Shown here piece by piece: positions 761 through 6,621 of a stretch of DNA of 6,795 bases (position 1 is its first letter; each line of letters begins with the position of its first letter). The DNA is from a bacterium (GTDB lineage: Bacteria; UBA9089; CG2-30-40-21; SBAY01). The notes beneath the pieces are model-generated. The model had not been told where the DNA came from. It worked only from the letters and a program-made list of their open reading frames with translations, and searched no databases. The DNA is taken from contig JBFLYA010000201.1 of the NCBI GenBank assembly GCA_040757115.1, positions 1 to 6,795 of the forward strand, written 5' to 3'. The translations under genes were made by a program, and so were the position numbers.

Positions 761-1540
761 CTAAAGTGTTACACCATGGCAAATACCCCGTTTAGAGTTT
801 TTAATAAAGTCTATCAGATAATTAATTTCAGGAGAGGGGGGTAATTCTTGCTCTATTTTTTTTAGAGCTTGAGAAGTATTAAGTTTAGAGCGATAAAGGA
901 TTTTGTAAGCAGATTTGAGGTTATTGCGGATTTCTTGTGAAAAACCTGCTCTTCGTAGCCCGACAGAATTTATCCCATGAATGACTAATGGATTACCATC
1001 AGCTAAGATATAAGGCGGGACATCTTGAGTTACCTGCGATAATCCACCAATCATAGCATAGCTACCGATTCTACAAAATTGATGAATTCCGACTAATCCT
1101 GAGATGACCGCTTTATCTTCAACCTTCACATGGCCAGCTAAGAGGGCACCATTAGTTATAATTACGCCTGAGCCTATTTCACAATTATGAGCGATATGGC
1201 TATTAGCCATCAGATAATTGTCATTGCCAATAACTGTTTTTTCTTTTTCCTTCCATCCGCGATGAATAGTAACATACTCTCTAATAATATTATTATCTCC
1301 AATGATACAATACGATTCCTTGATTTCATAATTTTTGATTTGAGGTTCATGACCAATAACACAGCCCATGTGGATGGTGCAGTTTTTGCCAATCGTGGTC
1401 CAGCCGTTTATAATAACATTAGCCCCGATTTTAGTCCCTTGCCTGATAGTCGCATTTTCTTCAATGATACTAAAAGGACCAATTTCTACATCATCTTCTA
1501 ATTTTGCCTTTGGATGGATAATTGCCGTTGGATGAATCAT
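761..1540 (-). CDS. lpxA: Acyl-ACP--UDP-N-acetylglucosamine O-acyltransferase (LpxA)
   Basis: LpxA performs the first step of lipid A synthesis in the cytoplasm, moving a 3-hydroxyacyl chain from ACP to the 3-position of UDP-GlcNAc. The protein has 259 residues, against 262 in E. coli. Residues 1 to about 185 are a left-handed beta-helix of hexapeptide repeats, seen as recurring [IV]G-x4 units (DVEIGP, TKIGAN, TTIGKN, CRIGSY). A helical C-terminal domain follows (RRAGFSQEIRNNLKSAYKILY). In SHIAHNC, His118 matches the catalytic His125 of E. coli and His115 matches His122. GHV (His137) and IHQF (His153, Gln154) are also in place. Gly166 falls at the 'hydrocarbon ruler' position (E. coli Gly173), which in known enzymes goes with long, about C14, chains; this is an inference. 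The ATG overlaps the fabZ stop as ATGA, and AAAAGGAG lies 5 nt upstream inside fabZ, so translation is probably coupled. lpxC and lpxD are not in the window. Confidence 0.96.
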   Translation of the reverse strand: MIHPTAIIHPKAKLEDDVEIGPFSIIEENATIRQGTKIGANVIINGWTTIGKNCTIHMGCVIGHEPQIKNYEIKESYCIIGDNNIIREYVTIHRGWKEKEKTVIGNDNYLMANSHIAHNCEIGSGVIITNGALLAGHVKVEDKAVISGLVGIHQFCRIGSYAMIGGLSQVTQDVPPYILADGNPLVIHGINSVGLRRAGFSQEIRNNLKSAYKILYRSKLNTSQALKKIEQELPPSPEINYLIDFIKNSKRGICHGVTL

Positions 1541-1974
1541 CTCGACTCCTTTTCAGATACAGCAAACATTAATGTTGCCTCAGCGGCTAATTTATTCTCT
1601 ACATAAGCTTTTCCTTCCATAACCCCAACTTTTTGTCGAATTTTAATTGGAACTACTTCAAACCGCAATTGGTCTCCCGGGATAACTGTTTTACGGAATC
1701 TTGCATGGTCAATTCCTGTAAAATAAACAATCTTACCCGCATGTTCAGGTTCAGAGAGCATAAGAACACCTGCAACCTGTGCCATTGCCTCAAGGATAAG
1801 TACTCCGGGTATAACCGGATGTCCTGGAAAATGTCCCTGAAAGAAAGATTCATTACAGGTAACATTTTTTATTCCCACTATTCTTTTGCCCCTTTCCATC
1901 TCAATAATACGGTCGATTAACAGAAATGGATATCGATGTGGCAAAATTTCTTGAATCTGTGTTATATCTAACAT
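1537..1974 (-). CDS. fabZ: 3-hydroxyacyl-[acyl-carrier-protein] dehydratase (FabZ)
   Basis: FabZ dehydrates 3-hydroxyacyl-ACP to trans-2-enoyl-ACP in type II fatty acid synthesis, in the cytoplasm. It competes with LpxA for the same 3-hydroxyacyl-ACP, which explains their common pairing. The 145-residue hot-dog-fold protein is of normal length. It starts with the family opening ILPHRYPFLLIDRI (10-23) and has FFQGHFPGHPVIPGVLILEAMAQ at 44-66. There His48 and Glu62 are the catalytic pair, spaced as His49 and Glu63 of the Pseudomonas enzyme. A good Shine-Dalgarno, AAGGAGAG, stands 4 nt before the ATG. Only 24 bp separate the start codon from the end of repeat element A, so the native ribosome site survived the insertion but everything upstream of it is now element sequence. 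Expression needs read-through from hslU or a promoter inside the element. The 3' end overlaps lpxA by 4 bp. Confidence 0.97.
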   Translation of the reverse strand: MLDITQIQEILPHRYPFLLIDRIIEMERGKRIVGIKNVTCNESFFQGHFPGHPVIPGVLILEAMAQVAGVLMLSEPEHAGKIVYFTGIDHARFRKTVIPGDQLRFEVVPIKIRQKVGVMEGKAYVENKLAAEATLMFAVSEKESR

Positions 1975-1990
1975 CTTTCTCTCCTTTTTT

Positions 1991-2013
1991 TACTAACTTA
2001 GAGTTCTGCAAAA
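1991..2013. repeat. Target duplication and terminal inverted repeat, fabZ side of element A
   Basis: TACTAACT (1991-1998) is the 8-bp target duplication. TAGAGTTCTGCAAAA (1999-2013) is the terminal inverted repeat, with A at 2002 where the other end has G. The duplication could also be scored as 9 bp (TACTAACTT), because T at 1999 is matched at 2460. Confidence 0.85.
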
Positions 2014-2093
2014 CTAAGAAACTGTAGTTTTTAAGCGGGTATTTAAAACCTCTATTTTTATCAATTTCCTCCAAAGAGCAAAATGCAAAACTC

Positions 2094-2240
2094 GTTTATA
2101 GTTTATAGTTTATAGTGTATAGTGTATAGTTTATAGTTTATGGTTTATAGTCTATAGTCCTTCAACTATCAACTATCTACTATCAACTATAAACTATCTA
2201 CTATAAACTATCAACTATCAACTATCTACTATCAACTATC
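2094..2240. repeat. Opposed heptad arrays forming a long imperfect hairpin (element A)
   Basis: Nine 7-bp units of consensus GTTTATA (variants GTGTATA, GTTTATG, GTCTATA) run from 2094 to 2156. After a short turn around GTCCTT, eleven units of consensus CAACTAT (variants CTACTAT, AAACTAT) run from 2163 to 2239. TATAGTT in the first arm is complementary to AACTATA in the second, and most units pair at 5 to 7 of 7 positions. The region can therefore fold into one hairpin with about 60 bp per arm. There is no spacer sequence as in a CRISPR and no coding potential: frames through it give only low-complexity Tyr/Ser/Ile/Asn peptides. Confidence 0.9.
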
Positions 2241-2377
2241 TTTGCCAAAGTTCAGTAAAATTATCTCTTTCCTTTCAGCGTTAAAATACTTGAAGCAAAG
2301 ATATTACCAAATTCCTCCAACTCTTTGAGAAATCATGCTACTTCCTTTTTGAAATTTGATTTGTAATTTTGCATTTT

Positions 2378-2412
2378 GATATTTAATATTTGATATTTAA
2401 TATTTGATATTT
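2378..2412. repeat. AAATATY heptad array (element A), five units
   Basis: On the minus strand this is AAATATC and AAATATT alternating for five 7-bp units. Degenerate units follow (AAAATGC and then AAA-led words). Copy B has six units, so the array differs by exactly one heptad. Confidence 0.85.
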
Positions 2413-2436
2413 AATTGTTGTCTCCCCCAAATCCTA

Positions 2437-2459
2437 TTTTGCAGAACCCTATACTAACT
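2437..2459. repeat. Terminal inverted repeat and target duplication, hslU side of element A
   Basis: TTTTGCAGAACCCTA (2437-2451) is the complement of TAGGGTTCTGCAAAA. It is followed at once by the second TACTAACT (2452-2459). Only one base separates the duplication from the last base of the hslU stop codon, so the insertion just missed hslU. Confidence 0.85.
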
Positions 2460-2460
2460 T

Positions 2461-3852
2461 TTAAAGTATATACCTGCTTAAATCCTCATCCTTAACAATA
2501 TCTTCTAATTTTTTGCGGACATACTCACGGTCGATAATAATCTCTTTAGTAGAGATTTCTGGTGCCTCAAAGGAAATATCTTCAACTACCTTTTCAATAA
2601 TCGTATGTAATCTTCTTGCCCCGATATTTTCGGTTCGTTCATTTATAGCATAGGCCATAGAAGCCATTTCGTCTATGGCATCTTCTGTGAATTTTATTTT
2701 TATTTCCTCTGTTTCTAATAAGGCAACATACTGTTTAATCAAGGCATTTTGAGGTTGAGTCAGGATTTGTTTAAATTGTTCTTCGGTTAATGTGTTTAAC
2801 TCAACTCGAATTGGAAATCTACCTTGCAACTCAGGGATTAAATCAGACGGTTTGGAATTGTGAAAAGTTCCGGCGGCAATAAAGAGAATATGTTGAGTTC
2901 GCACAGGTCCATAGCGGGTATTGACCGTAGAACCTTCAACAATAGGCAATAAATCTCGTTGAACCCCTTCTCGTGAGACATCAGGTCCTCCTCCTGGCGT
3001 TCCACTACCGGCGATTTTATCTAATTCATCTAAAAATATTATCCCTTGATTTTCTACGCGGGAAATAGCCTCTTTAGTTACCTTTTCCATATCGATTATT
3101 TTTTGAGATTCTTCTTGAGCTAATATTCTTCGGGCTTCAGCAACCGTTACCTTTCGCTTTTTAATCTTTGATGGTAGAACGGTACTCAAGGCATCCGTTA
3201 GTCCCATATCTATTCCTTCTATGCCACTGCCGGCAAAAACCTCTATCATTGGTAGCACTGTTTCTTTTACCTCAATCTCTATCATTCTATTTTCCAGAAC
3301 ACCCTGACGGAGTTGCTCTCGCAATTTTTCACGGGTAGCGGCAAATCTCTCTTTGGTATTAACCTCTTCTGTCTCAGGTTCTATTTCCATAAATGGAATA
3401 AACGGTGTGGCAAGTTTCTTTCTGCCTCTACCTCTTGGAACAGGAAGAAGAAGATCCAGTATCCTTTCTTCCGCTAACTCATCCGCCTTCCCCTTAACCG
3501 ACTCAATTGCCTCAGACTTGACCATATTAAGCGTCAGATTAGTCAGGTCTCTAACCATAGATTCCACATCTCGACCCACATAGCCAACCTCAGTGAATTT
3601 AGTCGCTTCTACCTTCAAGAAAGGCACTTTAGCTAAGTGAGCCAGCCGTCTGGCAATCTCTGTTTTACCGATACCCGTAGAACCTATCATAATGATATTT
3701 TTAGGTGCGACTTCATCTCGTAGTTCATCTGGTAGCCGTTGTCTGCGATAGCGATTTCGTAAGGCAATAGCTACAGATTTTTTAGCATCGTTTTGACCAA
3801 TGATGTATTTGTCTAACTCTGCAACTATCTTTCTTGGAGTTAATTCATCCAT
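2461..3852 (-). CDS. hslU: HslU, ATPase subunit of the HslUV protease
   Basis: HslU is the AAA+ unfoldase that feeds substrates to the HslV peptidase in the cytoplasm. This 463-residue protein is slightly longer than the E. coli one (443). Visible in order are the N-terminal [16 protein letters not shown] (5-20), Walker A GSTGIGKT (57-64; Ser replaces the usual Pro), the pore loop GYVG (90-93), an intermediate domain at about 110-240, Walker B FLDE (273-276), the arginine finger in GRFPIR (Arg345), sensor 2 GARRL (411-415, Arg414), and the C-terminal DLSRYIL tail that docks into HslV. All key residues are present. The TAA of ribBA is directly followed by this ATG, and the Shine-Dalgarno AAGGAGGGA lies inside the last ribBA codons, so the two are translationally coupled. 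hslV usually lies next to hslU but neither neighbour here is hslV. The DLSRYIL tail suggests an HslV partner is encoded elsewhere. Confidence 0.97.
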
Positions 3853-5189: not shown

Positions 5190-5424
5190 GTAACTGTTCA
5201 CCGCAGAGACACAGAGACGCAGAGAAAAAAATTAAAATCTATTCACCAGAAACAGAAATTTCCTTTTTTTTGTGCATTTCGGGTCTTTCGTTATTTATTA
5301 ATCTTTTAATACTTACTTTTGACTAACTGTTTTTTAAGCCTTTTTAAACACCGAAAAACGCGAAAAGCACGAAAAAAAGATATTTTCCTCTCTGTTTCTC
5401 TGCGTCTGTGCGGTAAAGAATTAC
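5190..5424. repeat. Nested inverted repeat, possible second miniature element
   Basis: The outer arms start GTAACTGTTCACCGCAGAG (5190-5208) and, on the opposite strand, GTAATTCTTTACCGCACAG (complement of 5406-5424), matching at 15 of 19 positions. Both continue inward with degenerate GCAGAGA or ACAGAGA words (to about 5226 and from about 5386). Inside lies a second inverted pair: 5264-5291, T-rich with GTGCATTTCG and TTTCGTT, against 5349-5380, CACCGAAAAACGCGAAAAG followed by CACGAAAA. The centre (about 5292-5345) is AT-rich and unique. I recall GCAGAGACGCAGAG and CACGAAAAACGC word families as recurrent intergenic repeats in many uncultured bacterial genomes, but this is memory only. I saw no clear target duplication. 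The repeat fills most of the ribBA-larB gap (5113-5593); no gene is seen in that gap. Confidence 0.65.
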
Positions 5425-5490
5425 CTGAATGGTTACATAAAAAGATTGTTTTTCAACCGCTTAAACTTATCCCCTTTTGGATTGAAGTTC

Positions 5491-6407: not shown

Positions 6408-6462
6408 ATTAGCGAGTTATCAATAGGATTCTGCAAAATAGGATTTGGGGGAGACAACAATT

Positions 6463-6504
6463 AAATATCAAATATTAAATATTAAATATCAAATATTAAA
6501 TATC
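6463..6504. repeat. AAATATY heptad array (element B), six units
   Basis: The units in order are AAATATC, AAATATT, AAATATT, AAATATC, AAATATT, AAATATC. Copy A has five strictly alternating units; the extra AAATATT here breaks the alternation, as expected of a single-unit slippage event. Confidence 0.85.
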
Positions 6505-6507
6505 AAA

Positions 6508-6621
6508 ATGCAAAATTACAAATCAAATTTCAAAGAGGAAGTAGCAGGATTTCTCAAAGAGTTGGAGGAATTTGGTAATATCTTTGCTTCAAGTATTTTA
6601 ACGCTGAAAGGAAAGAGATAA
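6508..6621 (+). other. Small open frame (37 codons) in the core of element B
   Basis: An ATG at 6508 opens a 37-residue frame ending in TAA at 6619-6621. It would encode a charged, helix-prone peptide with FLKELEEFGNIF in the middle. There is no Shine-Dalgarno: an AAATATC array precedes the ATG. In copy A the same frame (minus strand, 2374-2261) has Glu10 to Lys and a TGA in place of Gly14 (2333-2335). Both differences in the shared core change the residue or truncate the frame, which argues against selection on a peptide. I do not recognise it; it may be a decayed gene fragment or chance. Confidence 0.2.

Follow-up and report, generated by a model that had tools for sequence, protein, structure and literature searches.

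A MITE-like element between hslU and fabZ, from a family that appears anchored on Shine-Dalgarno sites and probably descends from a PF05635 element

Tn7 inserts at one site beside glmS, in a fixed orientation, at a fixed distance from the sequence it recognizes and with a 5-bp target duplication. Insertion sequences of the ISL3 type have ends resembling GGNTCT..GCAAAAC, some IS4 members give duplications of 10–13 bp, and a single DDE transposase does not usually produce duplications of varying length. The intervening sequences (IVS) of 23S rRNA have an upper size of about 750 bp. Starting from about 430 bp, they carry the S23p/IVP open reading frame (PF05635) as their sole gene in Coxiella and Leptospira, together with stem-forming inverted repeats; 7-bp repeats precede the S23p ORF in the Coxiella IVS, and the origin of these sequences has been unexplained since 1990, transposition having long been suspected (PMC4990558). 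Bacterial MITEs are short, multi-copy elements with inverted ends, target duplications and a strong hairpin but no transposase, and the text of a review devoted to them makes no reference to Shine-Dalgarno sequences or ribosome binding (PMC10969869). The element described here, Element A, and its family share all of these MITE features, but differ in a duplication of variable length, in a duplication edge 5 bp from a Shine-Dalgarno (SD) sequence, and in a single orientation. With the IVS the family has in common its size, the 7-bp repeats and PF05635 as sole gene, which is true of the parent copy (L098:1039-1622), the window copy holding a remnant only, and the stem-forming inverted repeats; unlike the IVS, it lies outside rRNA and before protein genes, with defined ends, duplications and many copies, and no rRNA family was found in the window. 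In its constant orientation and its set distance from a recognized sequence the family recalls Tn7, from which it differs in using a motif before many genes and in its 8–13 bp duplications. The resemblance of ends and duplications to the ISL3 and IS4 types is a lead only; the 11 DDE_Tnp_1 loci examined are without Element A ends.

The window, i.e. the whole stretch of 6,795 nucleotides that was analysed, is part of contig C201 of a MAG of 4.3 Mb in 462 contigs. Element A occupies 453 bp (1999..2451, minus strand); its sense strand is taken as that of the PF05635 remnant, which is the minus strand, as for fabZ. The 5' terminal inverted repeat TAGGGTTCTGCAAAA (sense, 2437..2451, minus strand) and the 3' terminal inverted repeat TAGAGTTCTGCAAAA (read inwards, 1999..2013, plus strand) are identical at 14/15 positions, and perfect copies of TACTAACT flank the element at 2452..2459 on the hslU side and at 1991..1998 on the fabZ side, the fabZ-proximal edge of the latter lying 5 nt from AGGAG. 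The 15-bp inverted repeats with one mismatch and the perfect flanking repeats that had been read from the window alone are thus borne out. Inside the element, an A/T-rich tandem array of the AAATATC type (2375..2415) stands ahead of the remnant of a PF05635 gene (2261..2374, minus strand), delimited by alignment to the full-length copy at G000:C211; in the remnant an N-terminal MQNYKSNFK is fused to the C-terminal part, with an early stop in frame. Complementary arrays of 7-bp repeats (2094..2240) make up the proposed heptad hairpin, which is real, with arms at 2094-2158 and 2162-2240; the sense RNA of Element A folds at -122 kcal/mol against -77 kcal/mol for shuffles (z -8.7), as one closed hairpin with the inverted ends paired. 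The window holds a second, inverted copy that is truncated by the contig end (6424..6795, plus strand; 5' end TAGGATTCTGCAAAA) and contains a 58-aa remnant ORF (6445-6621).

A 469-bp query found about 40 substantial relatives within the MAG, among many other copies an 87% identical one at G000:C5. The end core GGGTTCTGCAAAA occurs at 146 sites with at most one mismatch, compared with 1 for the reversed control, so that the ends of Element A are not due to chance. Nearly all 146 places were examined and their ends paired, which yielded 33 elements of 131–584 bp. Copies are intergenic, lying between protein genes and by the dozen ahead of unrelated ones, and their interior codes for a PF05635 remnant only, with no transposase of their own. 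Duplications flank 27 of the 33 paired elements (9 bp in ten, 10 bp in seven, 11, 12 and 13 bp in three each, and 8 bp in one), and no recognisable duplication is present at the other six; the 8-bp duplication that had been put forward thus holds for the window copy, but as a family constant it gives way to a range of 8–13 bp. A sister genome, G001, has 97–98% DNA identity to the MAG around hslU-fabZ and offers exact empty sites for two copies (L043 and L100), each with a single target copy (TTTTATTCCT and GACTTTTAT) and an otherwise unchanged junction. Because these two orthologous sites are empty and carry one target copy, the duplications are real, and the original prediction of a MITE-like insertion with target duplication is supported by the 33 paired copies, the 27 duplications and the two empty sites. 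Other copies are common to both genomes (L078/L368, L117/L370 and L098:214/L353); together with the empty sites they imply that the family predates the split of the two genomes, yet is not frozen. The 24-base 5' end gave no match in viral contigs, and the 3' end combined with the SD pattern gave three matches, apparently by chance. About 45 further copies of the Element A interior are nested within elements of another kind, family B (L037-L134, about 45 copies), a 200-bp MITE whose ends are GGTGGTGTCT and whose duplications are A/T-rich and 8 bp long; family B is a separate family that amplified part of Element A by carrying it.

The placement of the copies relative to the downstream gene leads us to regard it as a MITE family whose target specificity is new. 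In 18/27 cases the edge of the duplication that faces the gene lies exactly 5 nt from AGGAGG, and in three more 4 nt (4–5 nt in 21), the SD belonging to the same-strand gene downstream of the element. For 18/27 at one exact gap, P is ~7e-24 if positions were uniform over 45. When the 27 sites were aligned on the duplication edge without regard to the SD, base counts displayed AAGGAGG at +5 to +11, in which G reached 1.7 bits; with the element end as the reference point, the same sites gave a blurred signal, and the SD offset follows duplication length with r = 0.97. In terms of ends, an SD motif is found within 45 nt of 39/48 3' ends (in the sense of the remnant), mostly at 13–18 nt, against a background of 10.9% and against 2/48 on the antisense strand, and orientation relative to the downstream gene is nearly absolute. 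A clear SD is missing at a few family sites. The window copy obeys the rule, its 8-bp duplication being followed by five A's and then AGGAG, as do copies in G001 (L371, with an 11-bp duplication with one mismatch and a gap of 5; L355, with an offset of 16). A genome-wide scan for other SD-anchored duplications peaked at gap 5 (21 vs ~7), largely on account of this family. Since the edge stays fixed while the duplication length varies, one of the two joins keeps a set distance to the SD and the other shifts, and the constant gap from edge to SD argues that insertion is anchored on the ribosome-binding site in a fixed orientation. Anchoring of this family on the SD site is thus shown at the level of sequence, in two related genomes, the MAG (G000) and G001. 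Two elements with family ends obey the rule without a PF05635 interior, namely L062 (133 bp, TGTCATTGCGAG interior, 9-bp duplication, gap 5) and L360 in G001 (SD offset 15), whereas no such placement by the SD is seen in family B of the MAG (6/29). Specificity therefore follows the end sequence and not the cargo, which would mean that it resides with a putative transposase or a partner of it.

The origin of the interior becomes apparent from the parent copy at G000:C211 (L098:1039-1622), which measures 584 bp and has family ends, a 9-bp duplication with one mismatch and a 5-nt gap. Its ORF is intact (MQNYKSNFKKDFKKRLYNF...LTLKGKR) and matches PF05635 (23S_rRNA_IVP) with E 1.8e-18 and PDB 2rld with E 3e-11; a second intact PF05635 ORF is present at C50:20864, in an element cut by the contig end. 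Compared to the parent, the window copies have the N- and C-terminal ends of the gene joined through a deletion, and in place of the 3' untranslated stretch they have heptad arrays. PF05635 has 26 matches in the MAG. In a survey of 25 other genomes, with one PF05635 locus taken per genome, the best repeat period was 7 upstream in 20/25 and downstream in 21/25, and complementary 9-mers were shared by both flanks in 22/25, as against 14% for random pairs of stretches. In many genomes (L135-L156 and L299-L326) PF05635 genes stand between complementary heptad arrays, mostly directly before the SD of a same-strand gene. We infer that heptad arms and PF05635 form an old unit, of which the palindrome in the window would be a remnant. 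Four PF05635 loci (L142, L144, L145 and L153) have another terminal inverted repeat, GTAACTATTCA, and an 8-bp duplication, and SD anchoring was not seen at these, as far as they were examined. A third MITE-like element occurs in the window at 5190-5436, between genes of the ribBA type and with an AIRC domain, with ends GTAACTGTTCA / GTAACCATTCA and near-perfect 8-bp flanks ATAAAAA[A/G]; elsewhere, elements with this type of end contain PF05635 genes and are flanked by perfect 8-bp duplications. Both the descent from a PF05635 element and the SD anchoring are visible only from other copies and are beyond the reading of a single window.

Element A is thus probably a non-autonomous MITE that descended from the 584-bp PF05635 element and was inserted by SD anchoring. 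It would be an internally deleted descendant of an element whose sole gene is PF05635 (S23/IVP), moved in trans by a putative transposase acting on TAGRGTTCTGCAAAA ends. The junction of the element's 5' end lies exactly 5 bp before AGGAGG, and the second join is 8–13 bp upstream of that, which gives one orientation and a duplication of variable length. Either the transposase or a separate targeting protein may read the purine-rich AAGGAGG in DNA, and the 5' end of the element would always be seated on the side of the factor that recognizes it. The outcome is an element within the untranslated leader, with the ribosome-binding site intact and 13–18 nt away.

As to the mobilizing enzyme, no transposase was found between matching ends up to 4 kb from the ends that were examined, which covered all but about 16 one-mismatch sites of the 146, nor between matching ends among the 56 TTCTGCAAAA sites in G001, and none of 11 DDE_Tnp_1 loci had Element A family ends. 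Repeats interrupt the assembly, from which an autonomous copy could therefore be absent; many described MITEs are likewise without a known autonomous partner. At 3-527 the window contains a C-terminal DDE_Tnp_1 transposase fragment beside GTGGGTCAATT..CATTGCCAAA repeats, whose ends are unlike those of Element A. Two reverse-transcriptase genes are present (L378 and L379), one with TPR and a primase-like C-terminal part and one RVT_1-like, and neither of these RVT_1 loci is an obvious DGR or an element-linked reverse transcriptase.

These loci bear on a different account of the targeting, in which integration is guided by SD/anti-SD pairing in mRNA bound to the 30S subunit, or by a function of PF05635 linked to the ribosome. 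The motif is the SD itself, before a gene and in the gene's sense, and intervening sequences of 23S rRNA are known to encode PF05635 proteins (PMC4990558). A DNA-binding targeting factor accounts for the same pattern, however, L062 and L360 obey the rule with no PF05635 interior, neither a retroelement-type reverse transcriptase nor a DGR was seen at the two RT loci, and inverted ends with duplications fit DNA transposition, so that guidance by RNA or ribosome seems rather unlikely. The intergenic position of the copies, in a genome whose intergenic spacers are often short, could also be taken to mean that insertion occurs anywhere and that only harmless copies upstream of a ribosome-binding site persist. 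What selection would see is how far the element lies from the SD, a variable distance (13–18 nt), and not the duplication edge, which is fixed (5 nt); as the duplication is made by insertion, selection for harmlessness hardly yields a fixed distance to its edge. Given, in addition, the nearly absolute orientation and the different placement of family B in the same genome, we regard such survivorship as quite improbable.

Turning to the locus itself, SD-anchored insertion of a MITE is consistent with what is found between hslU (2461..3852, minus strand; AAA_2 and ClpB_D2-small domains, with HslU homologues), upstream of the element, and fabZ (1537..1974, minus strand; PF07977, E 2e-35), downstream. 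The SD of fabZ, AAGGAGAG, is intact (1979..1986, minus strand), as judged from its sequence and the family rule. From the hslU stop to the fabZ ATG the spacer measures 486 nt, or 25 nt minus the element and one repeat. In G001 the sequence at the fabZ site is ...TTTA / CTAATTTTTAAAG..., split by a different element and containing one TACTAA[C/T]T instead of two; this element is palindromic (L162:1397-1607) and interrupts TACTAATT, with no duplication in evidence. The MAG and G001 differ in their inserts at sites L109 and L125 as well. The rebuilt 25-nt empty spacer agrees with this arithmetic and with the single TACTAA[C/T]T; the anticipated empty hslU-fabZ site in a relative was thus recovered as regards the single target copy, but not as a clean junction. 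There is no direct empty site at fabZ because G001 has another insert and other relatives differ in gene order, while elsewhere in the family copies do have duplications. The closest named HslU relatives are from the MAGs 'bacterium Yes70-31' and 'Nitrospira sp. Bin_21_1' (82–83%), followed by UBA9089 (67%). In other relatives lpxC apparently precedes fabZ or is fused to it, which makes the hslU-fabZ order special to this genus among the genomes examined; the tight operon that had been assumed holds for this genus, but elsewhere lpxC rather than hslU stands before fabZ. FabZ lies inside open frames of 427–434 aa in the relatives L165, L166, L167, L171, L173 and L174, and such lengths suggest that LpxC and FabZ are fused elsewhere in the phylum.

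Element A shows no terminator-like site, and read-through into fabZ would be the simplest expectation. Whereas no good -35/-10 pair had originally been found, there is one decent pair on the fabZ strand (TTGATA-17-TATAGT, 10/12), in low-complexity sequence. That Element A is a selected regulatory module for fabZ-lpxA, be it promoter, RNase III switch or attenuator, is very improbable in spite of its very stable hairpin (z -8.7) and of promoter-like pairs in excess of shuffles (11 vs 3.0), as these matches lie in and stem from low-complexity heptads, an unrelated insert occupies the same spot in G001, and dozens of copies stand ahead of unrelated genes. For an SD-anchored MITE, the intact ribosome-binding site and a co-transcribed element closing as one hairpin would explain how it can reside within the hslU-fabZ-lpxA run, where little harm from it is predicted.

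To our knowledge, a transposable element with one cut fixed 5 bp from ribosome-binding sites and with one orientation is undescribed; in the open-access literature, as far as our limited coverage extends, no description of an SD-spaced, single-orientation transposable element was found. There is a small chance that machinery of a mobile element finds new sites through the SD signal by way of RNA or the ribosome, possibly with the help of PF05635; if true, the translation start signal would be a genome-wide landing pad, and the origin of the S23p IVS would be explained. Insertion at this position amounts to a safe-site strategy, by which operons of likely essential genes (fabZ-lpxA) can be invaded with coding sequence and translation signals untouched. 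The PF05635/S23p family, whose function is unknown, is now linked to an element that transposes, with empty sites and duplications as well as defined ends, and complementary heptad arms emerge as a general companion of PF05635 genes.
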